Shown here: in pieces, positions 8,906-18,722 of the stretch
Numbering within the stretch: the first letter of the stretch is position 1
Layout: the number at the start of each line of letters is the position of its first letter
Program-made: the position numbers and the translations under genes
DNA from: Pseudobdellovibrionaceae bacterium
GTDB taxonomy: Bacteria; Bdellovibrionota; Bdellovibrionia; Bdellovibrionales; Bdellovibrionaceae
Direction of reading: 5' to 3'
Length of the DNA: 35,627 nucleotides
NCBI GenBank assembly: GCA_016785955.1
Contig: JAEUWH010000031.1
Location: 1-35,627, forward strand
The notes under the pieces: model-generated
What the model was told of the DNA's origin: nothing
What the model saw: the letters and a program-made list of their open reading frames with translations, nothing else
Database searches by the model: none

Positions 8906-9322
8906 ATGTTCCCAGCGAATACAAAATTTCTAATCATCGACGATTTCGCTACCATGCGAAAAATCATTAGAAAAATATTAACCGAACTTGGCTATAGTCA
9001 AGTAGATGAAGCCGATGATGGTGCAACAGCCTTGCCCATGATCCAGTCTGCCCACGAAATTGGACAACCCTATCAGTTTATTATATCCGATTGGAATATG
9101 CCTAAAATGCTTGGAATCGATTTATTGCGTTCATGCAAAGCCGATCCTCGATTCGCTAAAATTCCCTTTATGCTGGTAACCGCAGAAAGCGAGCAAAAAC
9201 AAATTTTGGAAGCCGCCAAAGCGGGGGTATCAGATTATATCGTTAAACCATTTAATGCCGCTACCTTGAAAGCGAAACTTGAACGCGTCTATAGCAAAAC
9301 CCACCCGGCTCAAGTAGCTTAA
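8906..9322 (+). CDS. cheY: CheY-like single-domain response regulator
   Basis: Stand-alone receiver domain, 138 residues, with all expected residues: acidic pair in LIIDDF (12-13), phospho-acceptor Asp in FIISDWNMP (about 61), Thr in LVTAES (about 92) and Lys in IVKPF (about 114). No output domain, so it should act by protein contact, as CheY does at the flagellar switch. Strong ribosome site AGGAG five bases before the ATG. The next gene, 15 bases on, is a CheX-type phosphatase, which fits a two-gene phosphorylation and reset module. Whether it serves flagella, pili or gliding is not shown here. Confidence 0.85.
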   Translation: MFPANTKFLIIDDFATMRKIIRKILTELGYSQVDEADDGATALPMIQSAHEIGQPYQFIISDWNMPKMLGIDLLRSCKADPRFAKIPFMLVTAESEQKQILEAAKAGVSDYIVKPFNAATLKAKLERVYSKTHPAQVA

Positions 9323-9337
9323 CTAAAGGACAATTTT

Positions 9338-9832
9338 ATGACTGCAGCTCCGAAACTCCAAAATCCTCTTTTGGATAAAACCCTTATCAATTCGTTCATT
9401 GATGGTGTCTCTAAGACATTAAAAACCATGGCCAACACAGATTTGACGTATGGAAAACCCTACGTCGAACAAAAATTTGCTGCCCGAGGCGAAATTGCCG
9501 GCGTGGTGGGGATGGTTTCAAACCAATACAAAGCCACATTGACCCTCAGCTTTCCTAAACCCGCTATTTTACTTATTCTAGAAAATATGTTGGGCGAAAA
9601 GCATACAGACATTTCCGCCGAAGTTTTCGATGCCGTTGGCGAACTGACGAATATGATATATGGAAGCGCTAAAGCAACCTTGAATGACCTTGGCTACAAT
9701 TTTGAGATGGCCATTCCCACAGTCATACAAGGTCAATTCATTATGCTACAACACTCCAAATCAGCAACATTAGTGATTCCATTTAAATTAACAAACCAAG
9801 CGGAATTTTTTATCGAAATTTCAGTATATTAA
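9338..9832 (+). CDS. cheX: CheX-like CheY-P phosphatase
   Basis: 164 residues, the size and fold pattern of the CheC/CheX/FliY phosphatase family. The single active helix is recognisable as VGELTNMIYGSAKATL (about 107-122), carrying the ExxN catalytic pair (Glu and Asn). CheX enzymes remove phosphate from CheY-P. Ribosome site AAGGA lies in the short gap after cheY, so the two are almost certainly one transcript. It has one ExxN helix (CheC has two), which favours CheX. Its partner is probably the adjacent CheY. Confidence 0.8.
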   Translation: MTAAPKLQNPLLDKTLINSFIDGVSKTLKTMANTDLTYGKPYVEQKFAARGEIAGVVGMVSNQYKATLTLSFPKPAILLILENMLGEKHTDISAEVFDAVGELTNMIYGSAKATLNDLGYNFEMAIPTVIQGQFIMLQHSKSATLVIPFKLTNQAEFFIEISVY

Positions 9833-9913: not shown

Positions 9914-10642
9914 GTGGGGCTTAAAATCAAAAATTACTCGACTACTCAATCTCTCATGGTTAATGAACGCGGATTTTCCCTTATCGAAGTTATTGTCGCC
10001 ATCGGCATTTCGGCCATGGTGGTTCTTGGCACCTCCTCACTTTTTATAGACTCCGCAAAAGTAGAATCCGAACAAGAACGACAGTTTTGGATTGCCGCAC
10101 GAAGAATCGAATTTCAAGGTATCCTGCGCTCGCCTGTGGGTTGGACCTCCCTCCTGGCAAATAATCCCGCTATGGCATGTCTGACGAATGGCACCTCATG
10201 CTCTGGCGTCTCGACTTTGCAAACACTAAAGTTTCCGATCGATTCCATCGTACTTGATGGCGCATCGAATACCATTGGAATGAATAACAAAGGCGGTTTT
10301 TGTAATGCCTTCGATTCAATTAACGGCAACTCCTCGTGTCCAGTGGGAATTCAACTCTACTGGGTCGCGCTGTGTGACGATGCCAATTGCCTTCATGCGC
10401 AGCCTAAATTTACGATCAAATTCCGCGTCAAAGAACCCAGTGGAAGCCTAAAGCCACTGAATTCCTATGACCTTGTCATGTTCAAAGATCCAAAACTTGA
10501 GTCTTTAAATGAAGTCTGTACCGCGATGGGCGGCACATTGACGGGAAATACCTGCACCATCGCGTCTTTATCAACGGCATGCGATCCCTCGAATTCACTG
10601 GGTGCAGGAGCCACATACCCATTAGGTTTCGACAGCACCTGA
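9914..10642 (+). CDS. Prepilin-like protein, interrupted by an in-frame TGA
   Basis: Type IV pilin or pseudopilin precursor. The cleavage motif RG-FSLIEVIVAIGISAMVV is near the N-terminus, with Glu at +5, followed by a hydrophobic helix and a Cys-rich exported domain. Either the GTG at 9914 (AGG ahead) or the ATG at 9956 (leader MVNERG) may be the start. The frame stops at TGA 10640-10642 after YPLGFDST. Reading on in frame gives AVNCGKPNPGTCSNSDVAIG and onward to TAA at 10745-10747, copying the GxxxxGxxxC style of the neighbouring pilins' tails. GGA to TGA would explain it, so this is probably a truncated allele, a readthrough site or a base error. First of three overlapping pilin genes. Confidence 0.75.
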   Translation: MGLKIKNYSTTQSLMVNERGFSLIEVIVAIGISAMVVLGTSSLFIDSAKVESEQERQFWIAARRIEFQGILRSPVGWTSLLANNPAMACLTNGTSCSGVSTLQTLKFPIDSIVLDGASNTIGMNNKGGFCNAFDSINGNSSCPVGIQLYWVALCDDANCLHAQPKFTIKFRVKEPSGSLKPLNSYDLVMFKDPKLESLNEVCTAMGGTLTGNTCTIASLSTACDPSNSLGAGATYPLGFDST

Positions 10643-10725: not shown

Positions 10726-11520
10726 ATGCGCACCCGCATGCCTCTAAATCAAAGTGGAATGAGCCTTGTGCTCATTCTCGTCATAACAGGGATTATCGGT
10801 CTTTCTGCCGTATCCATCATGTCGATGGGTGATCGGAAAAGAAAAATCTCCCAGCAAATGAACATCTCTGTTTCAGCAAGCCTTGTGAAACAAAAATTGG
10901 TGGGTATGGTTTTGTCGCCCCAATCGTGGCAAGCCACCCAGGCTCATAATAGTTCTGCCTTCGCAAGTTTTAACCCGGCCTCTCCGCCCACTCTTGATAT
11001 TTATACCCCAGACTCCAGCACGCCATTTTATCAACCGTCAAACAGTCACGCCGGTTTTGATCTCAAAGGAAATCCTTGCTCAAATTTTGACCTCAGCGGA
11101 AATGACAACTGCCCGTTACGGTACGATATCACTCTCAAAAGCCGGGTTTTTCAAAATTCAAATTGGATCGATACCCTTCACTTTGAACTCACTTTTAAAC
11201 CGGCCTCCACGGGTCTTATTTTGAATACCACCGCCAGCCAATTTACATTTGATCTTGTCAGAAATTTAAATGATCAGAGTGTAGAATCCGCATGCATCTC
11301 GATAAATGGACTCTATGATACGAACTCGAATTCATGTTCAGTTAAAATCACAAAGACTGCGTCCACCTGCGGATCCGGCCAAACGTATCGAGGCCCAGCT
11401 TCAAATAATGGCGCTAATAACTGTGATAGCAAAACAATCGCACCAGCGGCATGCACGGGAAGCCAAGTCATAAAGGGCTTCAGCCAAACTGGTAATCCAA
11501 TTTGTGGGTCTCCGATATGA
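10726..11520 (+). CDS. Minor pseudopilin-like protein lacking Glu+5
   Basis: 264 residues. The prepilin cleavage site is NQSG-MSLVLILVITGIIG (Gly at about 11), then a hydrophobic helix, then an exported domain with Cys pairs (CSNFDLSGNDNC; CISINGLYDTNSNSC) and a tail ending GFSQTGNPICGSPI. Residue +5 is Leu, not Glu; loss of Glu5 is typical of GspK-type tip pseudopilins, so a tip or initiating subunit is a fair inference. The ATG at 10726 has GGAGG seven bases ahead and overlaps the readthrough frame of the first pilin gene. Its TGA overlaps the ATG of the next gene (ATGA), indicating translational coupling. Confidence 0.8.
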   Translation: MRTRMPLNQSGMSLVLILVITGIIGLSAVSIMSMGDRKRKISQQMNISVSASLVKQKLVGMVLSPQSWQATQAHNSSAFASFNPASPPTLDIYTPDSSTPFYQPSNSHAGFDLKGNPCSNFDLSGNDNCPLRYDITLKSRVFQNSNWIDTLHFELTFKPASTGLILNTTASQFTFDLVRNLNDQSVESACISINGLYDTNSNSCSVKITKTASTCGSGQTYRGPASNNGANNCDSKTIAPAACTGSQVIKGFSQTGNPICGSPI

Positions 11521-13124
11521 TTTCATTTTTTTCACGCCTTAAAAAACAAAAAGGGTTCAGTCTTATTGAGGTCATGATCGCAACAGCGATGCTATCGATT
11601 GCAGGCTTGTCTATGGTGGGCTTGTTACAACTTGCCAACCAAGACTCACTACAGCTTCGCGCCACCCGAGTCGCACTCACGGCCAGAGTACAAATCGAAG
11701 CCGCATTAAAAAACCCGGCGTCGTGGCGACAGACCGTCGCTCAAAATACATCCTTTGCCTGTGTCAACACGCCTCCGGGTTGCAGTCTCGGAGTTGTAAA
11801 TGGTGGCTATCATAATTTTGTTCTCTATGGTATCGGCGTCGGAGAAAAAGTGACTTTTGATGCTTCTGATACAACCACTCGTTATAATATTCAGGGAGGT
11901 GCCTGTCCCACAGGAACGCCAAACCCTGATCCACAATGCCCAATTAAGTTCATGGCTCGCTGGAAACCACTTTGCCAAACCTACCCCTGTCTCAATCCAA
12001 CACTTGATGTTAAAATTTCGCTGGTACCCGAGTTTGGTACGAATGCGCCGCTGTTTAATCCACAAAAATATGAATACGCCACGGTACGTGGAATTGATGA
12101 TGGGTCACTGCAATCGGCTTGTCAGATTTTAAATGGCACCTACAATGTCATCACGGGAACGTGTTATCCAAAAAATGCGGGCCGATCCTGCGCCGCTCTT
12201 GGAAGACCGGCACAAATTATTACCAGTGTCGCGGCCGATGGAAGCATCACTTGTGCTCCGCTGTATAGTGGACAGTGCAACGCCGCTACTCAAGTCATGA
12301 ATGGAATTAATACTTCTGGCGTCGCCCAATGTACCACAAAAGTGCAGCCCACAAATTGTCCAACCCCTTGCGTAGGCGGTTGGGGCAGTTGTTCTAAAAC
12401 ATGCGGAGGCGGTACTCAAACCTATGCCGTCATTACCCCTGCGACCAATGGAGGACCCGCGTGTACATCTCCGGCACCGGGAGCGACTCAAGCATGCAAT
12501 TCAAATCCTTGCGCCGTGAATTGCGTAGGCAGCTGGAGCGCCTGCTCAGAACCTTGTGGTGGTGGCTATATGACCTATTCAATTGTAACCCCCGCATCTA
12601 ATGGCGGAGCCAGTTGCTCGAACAATACGGGCGACACACAGACATGTAATTCCCAAGCCTGCGCCGTTGCCGTCAACTGCGATGGCTCCTGGAGCGGATG
12701 CAATCAAGTCACTGGAACCAGAACATACACTGTCACGCAAGTCCCCCAAAATGGTGGCGTGGCGTGCCCCTCCCCCCTTACACAAAATTGTGCTGTCGAT
12801 TGCGTCGGAAGCTGGGGCGCCTGCTCGGGAGGGCCTCCCCAATTTAAGACCTACACCTGGACAACACCACCACTGAATGGAGGCTCCACGGCAACCTGTG
12901 CGTATCCGAATGGGCAAACGGACTCGGCAACATGCCTAACACAGTGTATTCGCTATGGTACGGATCCCATCGGTACTTACATCGATGATACTGGTACCTA
13001 TAGCGCAACAGGAGGTATTGGAGACCCATCTGATTTTGCAATGATCACTCCGTACACAAGCCGTGCGGCCTGCGAATCCCCTCCAAATGGTTTTGATTTC
13101 GGAGAATGGTGTGTCTGCAAATAG
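11517..13124 (+). CDS. Pilin-like protein fused to thrombospondin type-1-like repeats
   Basis: 535 residues from the ATG at 11517, which overlaps the previous TGA and has GGG ahead; an in-frame TTG at 11502 is less likely. The N-terminus is a prepilin: KKQKG-FSLIEVMIATAMLS with Glu+5. A pilin-like globular domain follows (about 40-235), then a Cys-rich linker with GINTSGVAQC-style motifs, then four thrombospondin type-1-like repeats (about 285-475) starting GGWGSCSKTCGGG, GSWSACSEPCGGG, GSWSGCNQ and GSWGACSGG. The first two keep the WxxC and CGGGxxxY cores; the last two are degenerate. A 55-residue Cys-containing tail closes the protein. Most likely a pilus-tip adhesin: pilin end in the fibre, repeats outward. 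Adhesion is inference; the architecture is visible. Confidence 0.8.
   Translation: MISFFSRLKKQKGFSLIEVMIATAMLSIAGLSMVGLLQLANQDSLQLRATRVALTARVQIEAALKNPASWRQTVAQNTSFACVNTPPGCSLGVVNGGYHNFVLYGIGVGEKVTFDASDTTTRYNIQGGACPTGTPNPDPQCPIKFMARWKPLCQTYPCLNPTLDVKISLVPEFGTNAPLFNPQKYEYATVRGIDDGSLQSACQILNGTYNVITGTCYPKNAGRSCAALGRPAQIITSVAADGSITCAPLYSGQCNAATQVMNGINTSGVAQCTTKVQPTNCPTPCVGGWGSCSKTCGGGTQTYAVITPATNGGPACTSPAPGATQACNSNPCAVNCVGSWSACSEPCGGGYMTYSIVTPASNGGASCSNNTGDTQTCNSQACAVAVNCDGSWSGCNQVTGTRTYTVTQVPQNGGVACPSPLTQNCAVDCVGSWGACSGGPPQFKTYTWTTPPLNGGSTATCAYPNGQTDSATCLTQCIRYGTDPIGTYIDDTGTYSATGGIGDPSDFAMITPYTSRAACESPPNGFDFGEWCVCK
12369..12940 (+). repeat. Four TSP1-like protein repeats in the pilin-fusion gene
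   Basis: The coding repeats start near 12369, 12525, 12678 and 12807, each about 130-150 bases. Each opens with C, about two residues, then G-W or S-W, x, x, C, followed by a Thr/Tyr-rich strand (QTYAVITPATNGG, MTYSIVTPASNGG, RTYTVTQVPQNGG, KTYTWTTPPLNGG) and closing Cys residues. Conservation is at protein level; the DNA copies differ clearly, so this is an old duplication. Repeats 1 and 2 are closest to the eukaryotic TSP1 pattern. Confidence 0.75.
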
Positions 13125-17039: not shown

Positions 17040-18722
17040 ATGAGTCAAAATCACAAATTGAAACTGGAACCTAAATTTGAAATTTTTGGTAGCTACATTC
17101 TGTTAAAAAAAATAGCCGAAGGCGGCATGGCTGAAGTTTTTTTAGCCAGACCAAGTTCTTACATGGGAAATGGTCGCCTACTAGTGGTGAAACGCCTTCT
17201 TCCACATTTTTCAAATCAACCTATGTTTCTAAATATGTTTCAAAATGAAATCCAAGTGTTAATGGGCTTTTGTCATCCCAACACTGTGCAGCTTCATGAT
17301 TTTGGTAAAGTCGAAGATCAGCCATTTATTGCCATGGAATTTCTTAATGGTAAAAATCTACGTGATTTGTCAAATAAAATGCTCCTGAAAAAGGGCGAGA
17401 TGATTCCAGTTCCTGTCGTGTTAAGTTTGATTATTCAAGCGGCGGCTGGTTTGGATTATGCTCACACCTTTATGAACAGCGTAACGGGCGAGACCGCCAA
17501 TACGATTCATCGTGATGTTTCGCCGCAAAACCTGATTGTCTCTTACGAAGGAAACTTAAAAGTAATCGATTTTGGTATTGCTAAGGCCAATACCAATCTA
17601 GACGAAAAAACTCGCATTGGTACGATCAAAGGCAAGGCCGCTTATTTGTCGCCGGAACAAACACGCGGGGAAGTCGTTGATGCGCGTTCGGATATTTTCT
17701 CTTTAGGCATCGTGGCTTGGGAGCTTTTAACTCTTATCCGTTACTATAATCAAAAAGATTCTGATCGGAAAAAGTCTGGACACAATGTCATCGGCATTCG
17801 AGATAACACGGTTTCACCATCTATATACAATGATAAAGTCCCTGTGGATTTAGACATAGCGATTGCTAAAGCACTTCGTATCAATGCAAATGATCGTTAT
17901 CAAACAGCAAAAGAATTTCAATCAGCTCTACGCCAAATCATGCTTAAGTATTTTCCCAATCACACCTATGCGGATACAGGAACCTTTGTTCGCGATTTAT
18001 TCACGGATGAAATCGAAAAAGAAAAAACAGAAGTCTTTGAATTAAATCGCGAGGCACAACAAGCCCTGTTCAAACAGGACACAACGGTGATTGTTCCCGC
18101 CCCCTCTCAATTGACACCCACTGAAGGCATCGTCGAAAAAGACGATAAAGATGAATTCATTCATACGCGAATTGCCGTACTGGAAGGCATGATTAAAATG
18201 ATGGAAACGACAACACGTGTGGCCTCGAGGCTGCCCAAAGGCGAAGTCGACGGTGCGTCGTTTGATCCAAGTTCAGAGACTTGGTTGGCACAAGAGCATT
18301 TCAACAGCCTGCTGGCAGACAATTTGGACATCGATACGACACAGATTTTAAAAATACGCGATAACACAAAAGTGCGGGTCATGGTCGAAGGCCGCATCAA
18401 CATCTATGATATTAACGGCAAAATTATCACCAAAGCCAAATTGCGCAATTGTTGCCTTAGCGGAATTGGTTTCGAAACAGCACCCAGTACCCTGGCCCCA
18501 CAAACGCCAGTGCTGGTAGAGTTCAATGCCGAAGGCTTTGGACCAAAAATGGGTCTTGTCAAATGTGAAGTCCGATGGGTGGCGCCGATTGAAGGTCACT
18601 ATTGGGGGCACCATGTCGGTGGTTTGCAATTTACCAAACTGACTCCCGAGAGCACTAAAAAACTTTCCGACTATCTCAAAAACTATAAACGTTCGGATGG
18701 TTTCGGTATCGACGACCGCTAG
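17040..18722 (+). CDS. Ser/Thr protein kinase fused to a PilZ-like domain
   Basis: 560 residues. Kinase domain (about 18-300): glycine loop IAEGGMAEV, Lys in VVKRLL, catalytic loop HRDVSPQNL (the delta-type variant), DFG, and SPEQ in the activation segment. A linker of about 120 residues follows, then a PilZ-like domain (about 430-545: VRVMVEGRINIYDINGK, NCCLSGIGFE, VRWV...GHHVGGLQF). Known PilZ domains bind c-di-GMP through RxxxR and D/NxSxxG. Here the spacing is RxxxxxR and the second motif begins with Cys (CLSGIG), so c-di-GMP binding is uncertain. No membrane segment, so probably cytosolic. Ribosome site AGGAA before the ATG. The 3' end overlaps the convergent RDD gene by four bases. Confidence 0.85.
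   Translation: MSQNHKLKLEPKFEIFGSYILLKKIAEGGMAEVFLARPSSYMGNGRLLVVKRLLPHFSNQPMFLNMFQNEIQVLMGFCHPNTVQLHDFGKVEDQPFIAMEFLNGKNLRDLSNKMLLKKGEMIPVPVVLSLIIQAAAGLDYAHTFMNSVTGETANTIHRDVSPQNLIVSYEGNLKVIDFGIAKANTNLDEKTRIGTIKGKAAYLSPEQTRGEVVDARSDIFSLGIVAWELLTLIRYYNQKDSDRKKSGHNVIGIRDNTVSPSIYNDKVPVDLDIAIAKALRINANDRYQTAKEFQSALRQIMLKYFPNHTYADTGTFVRDLFTDEIEKEKTEVFELNREAQQALFKQDTTVIVPAPSQLTPTEGIVEKDDKDEFIHTRIAVLEGMIKMMETTTRVASRLPKGEVDGASFDPSSETWLAQEHFNSLLADNLDIDTTQILKIRDNTKVRVMVEGRINIYDINGKIITKAKLRNCCLSGIGFETAPSTLAPQTPVLVEFNAEGFGPKMGLVKCEVRWVAPIEGHYWGHHVGGLQFTKLTPESTKKLSDYLKNYKRSDGFGIDDR

Follow-up and report, generated by a model that had tools for sequence, protein, structure and literature searches.

In a Pseudobdellovibrionaceae bacterium, the gene pil3 encodes a modular pilin. 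Its testable features qualify it as such, and its C-terminal module is of the thrombospondin type 1 (TSP1) class by both sequence and fold. We consider it reasonably probable that pil3 is a minor type IV pilin of the modular kind which belongs to a three-pilin tip complex and uses its TSP1 repeats as an adhesive arm. The gene lies within the window, i.e., the whole stretch of 35,627 nucleotides that was analyzed, and the positions of the relevant features are compiled in Table 1.

Table 1 Features of the pilin operon and its surroundings (positions refer to the window)
Feature	Position	Strand	Description
cheY-cheX	8906..9832	+	Upstream genes forming the conserved left boundary of the accessory block; not regarded as belonging to the tip
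Genome-specific segment	9833..17039	.	Bounded by cheX and, at 17040, by a kinase-like gene; synteny with L127-L131
pil1	9914..10642	+	Glu5 prepilin (MVNERG/FSLIEV); likely start ATG 9956; PF07963 29 bits
pil2	10726..11520	+	Prepilin-like, without Glu5 (NQSG/MSLVLILV); pilin family E 3e-43
pil3	11517..13124	+	Modular prepilin with TSP1 repeats; ORF, 535 aa, ATG start
pil3 leader peptide	11517..11555	+	MISFFSRLKKQKG; predicted prepilin peptidase site after G13; PF07963, TIGR02532
pil3 pilin unit	11556..12347	+	Residues 14-277; long alpha-1 helix, then the cysteine-rich body common to the pilin family
TSP1 repeat 1	12369..12512	+	Residues 285-332 (profile match 285-335); six Cys; 46.6 bits
TSP1 repeat 2	12522..12662	+	Residues 336-382 (profile match 337-388); six Cys; 49.5 bits
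TSP1 repeat 3, degenerate	12678..12803	+	Residues 388-429 (profile match 388-426); without the CGGG cysteine; 9.6 bits, i-E 5e-5
TSP1 repeat 4, degenerate	12804..12944	+	Residues 430-476; 4.4 bits, i-E 0.002
pil3 C-terminal tail	12945..13121	+	Residues 477-535; four Cys; without family match; pLDDT < 50

The N-terminus of pil3, MISFFSRLKKQKG followed by FSLIEV, is recognized by PF07963 with 29.1 bits (cut-off 21.2) and as a prepilin signal by TIGR02532 with 23.1 bits (cut-off 16.3). It has the elements of the class III signal of type IV pilins, namely a leader ending in Gly, a hydrophobic helix, and Glu5 (KG/FSLIEV). The chain also has the layout of a modular pilin, in which the pilin unit is followed, after residue 283, by a TSP1 domain that is not specific for pili. 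In the full-length AlphaFold model, which is poor (pLDDT 52), residues 14-65 form a helix, and strands follow. The better parts of this low-confidence model are the repeats and the long helix at its start, and its PDB matches cover the TSP1 part only.

The C-terminal half exceeds the cut-offs of three TSP1 models in Pfam: PF19028 with 47.5 bits (cut-off 41), PF00090 with 31.9 bits (21.6), and PF19030 with 25.2 bits (23.8). A profile built from 46 repeats, all taken from other genomes, gave 86.7 bits for pil3 and the values for the single repeats in Table 1. Shuffled pil3 sequences reached a maximum of -15.3 bits (1000 composition shuffles) or -14.7 bits (1000 shuffles with cysteines fixed), and both controls rule out chance or an artefact of cysteine composition. 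For repeats 1 and 2, AlphaFold predicts three strands per repeat at a pLDDT of 87.6. The best matches of this model in a Foldseek comparison against the PDB are TSP-1 repeats (1lsl with an E of 7e-7, 7yyk, and 3r6b), followed by complement C6 and properdin. With VIA-align 2, the best Z was only 4.8 (1lsl), which is middling for a pair of small domains joined by a linker. A sequence-only reading had proposed that one chain joins a prepilin N-terminus to four TSP1-like repeats, two good and two degenerate, and had left their three-stranded fold to be checked. The joint occurrence is borne out by Pfam and TIGR02532, the split into two and two was recovered with the profile from other genomes, and the fold agrees with the model, whose closest PDB structure is thrombospondin-1.

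The most familiar carriers of TSP1 are matrix proteins of animals and adhesins of the malaria parasite. Like the eukaryotic repeats of thrombospondin-1, properdin, F-spondin, and TRAP, the repeats of pil3 have six cysteines, three strands, a W-x-x-C motif, and a CGGG turn. They differ in that WxxW and the Arg ladder are missing and basic residues are very few: the repeat region of 194 residues contains 2 Lys and 1 Arg and has a pI of 4.4. Each repeat has a single Trp, and Thr or Tyr replaces Arg. A stack of Trp and Arg (WxxW with R-x-R) is typical of heparin-binding TSP1 repeats and is not required for the fold. Because the repeats are acidic, poor in basic residues, and without the Arg ladder, heparin-type glycan binding is unsupported, and the earlier suggestion that they bind glycans as in eukaryotes is weakened. 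This argues against heparin-type binding and not against the binding of proteins or neutral glycans. The most likely ligand would be a protein or a neutral or LPS-type surface structure of another cell, and a sulphated glycan is less likely.

All three genes of the operon are on one strand, with pil1 (Glu5) followed by pil2 (no Glu5) and, as the last gene, pil3 (Glu5). The ATG of pil3 overlaps the stop codon of pil2 (ATGA), which suggests translational coupling. Membership of pil1 in the pilin family described below is clear (E 5e-52). Its frame is interrupted by an in-frame TGA at 10640-10642 and then stays open to a TAA at 10744-10746. The stretch beyond the TGA resembles the usual C-terminal Cys unit of the family, and the homology spans the stop. 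The TGA could stem from a mutation or from faulty assembly, or it could be a real truncation. Since it deletes the usual C-terminal unit of pil1, the operon is perhaps partly decayed. No Pfam match was obtained for pil2, and the Glu5-less gene of L101 is among its close positional matches. The G + C content of the operon is 0.45-0.50 versus about 0.42 for most of the window, and unusual amino acid composition may explain the difference.

To define the pilin family, an iterated profile was seeded with the three pilins of the window and run over the fetched loci. It collected 95 members of 177-1099 aa, 63 of them with Glu5. The relatives come largely from draft genomes, and gene starts were assigned mechanically. 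In Pfam, the family is covered by the N-methylation motif only. C82, C89, C130, and C141 (pil3 numbering) are near-invariant across 93 members and mark a common body. A search with the N-terminal 285 residues of pil3, i.e., without TSP1, detects relatives in 61 of the 144 class genomes. The genes mostly form clusters of two or three, many of which include a member without Glu5, and the order Glu5, no Glu5, Glu5 recurs in the window, L077, L080, L101, and L111. C-terminal modules comprise TSP1 in six members, collagen in five, S74 in three, and Big_9 in three, with RCC1, Calx-beta, LamG, cadherin-like, and fibrinogen-C modules seen once each; these counts are not frequencies because TSP1 loci were fetched on purpose.

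The best match of pil3 is the third gene of L077 (residues 9-277 of a 540-aa reading). Where pil3 is compared with the equivalent gene of other trios, homology ends near residue 277, shortly ahead of repeat 1, which starts at 285. L111 has a trio of the same layout, and its third gene carries Calx-beta domains. Compared in this way, pil3 and its counterparts have the look of different modules grafted on one carrier. As the same pilin unit carries many C-terminal modules, the operon in the window would be one of a set of tips that can be exchanged. The C-termini in the trios of L077, L080, and L101 are rich in Gly and Cys or in Pro. Next to these three trios lies a multi-pass membrane protein (conserved, 381-457 aa, HTTM-like by eye), which is a possible partner; the operon in the window has no such neighbor.

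TSP1 itself is more widely distributed. PF19028 has matches in 24 of 369 genomes of the phylum (E ≤ 1e-4), and the carriers include lipoproteins, VWA-like DxSxS proteins, a fibre-like protein (L007), and prepilins. Given its presence in lipoproteins and other exported proteins, TSP1 is a general exported module in Bdellovibrionota. A prepilin with TSP1 occurs in G000, G045 (three genes), G138, and G128, and the last three answer the call of the sequence-only reading to look for this pairing elsewhere in the phylum. Six TSP1-bearing members of the pilin family, from four genera, were counted. L041 and L133, which have pilin-like N-termini and TSP1, were left out, L041 having failed the family profile. 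The repeats are of two styles: one with WxxW and Arg, common in lipoproteins, and one like that of pil3, with a leading Cys, one Trp, and Tyr or Thr for Arg. No close orthologue of full-length pil3 was found in the genome contigs with a single-protein search; an alignment-based search of the contigs returned three loci from Bdellovibrionales and a weak one from Bacilli. L148, from a MAG of an uncultured member of the Bacilli, is a weak TSP1-like match outside the phylum with 37% over residues 292-402.

Several of these loci have features of their own. At L035 (6440-13509) of G045, three prepilin-TSP1 genes lie within about 7 kb on both strands and have Gln instead of Glu at position 5; this trio is a local family expansion. 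At L043/L146 of G128, the TSP1 prepilin is divergent from two pilin genes, and masked stretches cover its end. An overlapping downstream frame encodes many delta-60/beta-propeller-like repeats, and the real protein may be longer. L007/L037 of G021 encodes the fibre-like protein, with VGIG...ARLDV repeats (phage-tail/MAT-like) and TSP1 near the C-terminus, which suggests that more than one scaffold uses TSP1 as its tip. In seven loci (L016, L017, L019, L025, L136, L141, and L142), lipoprotein-like products combine TSP1 with a VWA/MIDAS-like DxSxS stretch. The pairing of TSP1 with VWA is known from the TRAP adhesins of apicomplexans; in L016 and L141, the two tested, Pfam gave no VWA match at E ≤ 0.001. 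The genome of the window has a second TSP1 protein (L034 5591-7537, contig C40) with DUF4832, a GH42-like region, and one C-terminal repeat of the Arg-containing pattern.

The genome-specific segment (Table 1) holds the pilin operon, a CoA-transferase-like gene, a small exported protein, and a dehydrogenase. In five congeners, cheY-cheX are 80-90% identical; the luxR/cheY/cheX block is kept in all five and the thioesterase in four. There, cheX is followed by a gene for a receiver-like protein (about 460 aa; truncated at a contig end in one genome), and in G060 the next conserved gene after it corresponds to the gene at 17040 of the window. The pilin operon was not found at the cheX slot in any of these five genomes. 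Since no pilin gene lies between the syntenic borders in the congeners, we place the operon in a genome-specific segment. As a part of an accessory block that is missing from this slot in the congeners, it does not belong to the predation core, and a core predation locus is rejected for the cheX slot. Contamination or misassembly is unlikely because the operon is inside one contig and its flanks are syntenic with the congeners. Phage, plasmid, and viral collections gave no match that would indicate a phage or plasmid origin.

The genome also encodes PilB (732.6 bits, above the cut-off), PilT (480.4 bits), and one prepilin peptidase. Hence, a machine that can assemble such subunits is present. 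PilY1 of Pseudomonas and Myxococcus is an adhesin at the minor-pilin tip and is itself not a pilin. By analogy, the likeness to pil3 would lie in this function. PF05567 (PilY1) is not among the Pfam matches of pil3, and the profile is silent across 143 genomes of the class, as it is in the control genomes, so that this silence is no evidence of absence.

In the proposed mechanism, prepilin peptidase would cut the N-terminal leader of pil3. The alpha-1 helix would then pack with pil1 and the Glu5-less pil2 into a small heteromeric complex, which would cap a filament made by the type IV pilus machine of the genome. The four TSP1 repeats, placed after a complete pilin unit, would extend outward and form an elongated adhesive arm rich in disulfides. 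We infer the assembly of the three pilins, their tip position, adhesion, and prey specificity; that pil3 sits at the pilus tip as an accessory adhesin is plausible. Indirect support comes from the trio of prepilins with its Glu5-less member, the placement of the module behind a whole pilin unit, the pilus genes of the genome, and published precedents.

The repeats may instead be a rigid, disulfide-rich stalk, assembly element, or spacer that keeps the minor pilins together or sets a distal part at a distance and binds no target, and such a role would look the same as an adhesin in sequence. The nearly uncharged, acidic character of the repeats, the degeneration of two of the four, and the 59-residue Cys-containing tail beyond them are consistent with it. 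However, the occurrence of TSP1 on unrelated exported scaffolds (the fibre-like end of L007 and lipoproteins) fits a binding module better, and relatives carry lectin-like and other modules at the same position. We rate a stalk as rather unlikely. It is improbable that the trio are periplasmic pseudopilins of a type II secretion system, in which TSP1 would recruit a secreted substrate. The genome does contain a second GspE/PilB-type ATPase (C59, 600 bits), and a minor pseudopilin without Glu5, GspK, is known from type II systems as well. Yet pil1 and pil3 score 12.5-14.3 bits on the NCBIfam models of GspH/I/J against cut-offs of 44-80 and are not such pseudopilins by this measure, the accessory operon has no adjoining secretion genes, and the diversity of modules is unlike that of conserved pseudopilins.

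The in-frame TGA in pil1 and the absence of the operon from the cheX slot of the congeners could also point to a decaying gene set without current function. We consider this very improbable, as pil2 and pil3 are intact and both six-cysteine repeats and the pil2/pil3 overlap are kept. Within the tip adhesin reading, the target need not be prey; particles, biofilm matrix, or kin cells could be bound instead. The modular pilins of Streptococcus sanguinis bind host proteins (PMC8179133), whereas the tip-swapping fibres described for Bdellovibrio act on prey (PMC10769870). A non-prey target is possible at somewhat below even likelihood.

Several known systems bear comparison with pil3 as a candidate tip adhesin. 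A survey of modular pilins describes PilB (vWA) and PilC (lectin) of S. sanguinis as adhesive modular pilins, with the vWA module of PilB binding host proteins; it counts 264 architectures and holds that tip exposure is probable for such subunits (PMC8179133). Pil3 resembles them in having a class III signal, a pilin unit with a known extra domain C-terminal to it, and several minor pilins alongside. It differs in its diderm host, its distinct Cys-conserved pilin body, and a module that varies between related clusters. A TSP1 module is not named in the main text of the survey (PMC8179133). The Kil pilus of Myxococcus has interchangeable tips of three minor pilins, with variable domains directed at different prey, and the paper predicts a Tip in Bdellovibrio without mentioning thrombospondin (PMC12075869). 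The Kil Tips (KilL/M/N) share with the window family three co-encoded minor pilins, several paralogous sets per genome, a large variable C-terminal domain on one subunit, and many disulfides. They are of the TadE/F/G type, whereas the window family has an N_methyl-type signal; no Tad-family Pfam match was obtained for pil1-pil3 at E ≤ 1, and by Pfam pil3 is not a minor pilin of the Kil (Tad) type. The mosaic adhesive trimer (MAT) fibres of Bdellovibrio have swapped C-terminal tips, some with animal-like folds (PMC10769870). MATs are not pilins. The S74 domain, which MATs use too, is found on three members of the pilin family. In the open-access literature searched, no paper combined thrombospondin with a prepilin or reported thrombospondin in Bdellovibrio.

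We regard it as an evenly balanced proposition that Bdellovibrionota possess a phylum-scale, polymorphic set of exchangeable minor-pilin tip operons, each with two or three prepilins, one Cys-conserved unit, and variable C-termini (TSP1, Calx-beta, collagen, S74, and lectin-like). This set would be a third adhesive system beside MAT fibres and Kil Tips, with TSP1 common to pilins and other surface scaffolds. Pil3 provides a defined example, outside eukaryotes, of TSP1 attached to a subunit of a pilus. The broader and more interesting point is the class-wide set of swapped minor-pilin modules: an unnamed pilin family in which each cluster is a compact, testable unit. From the sequences, relatives with other binding modules on the same kind of subunit suggest exchangeable "grips" at the pilus tip, which bears on how Bdellovibrio-like bacteria recognize diverse targets.
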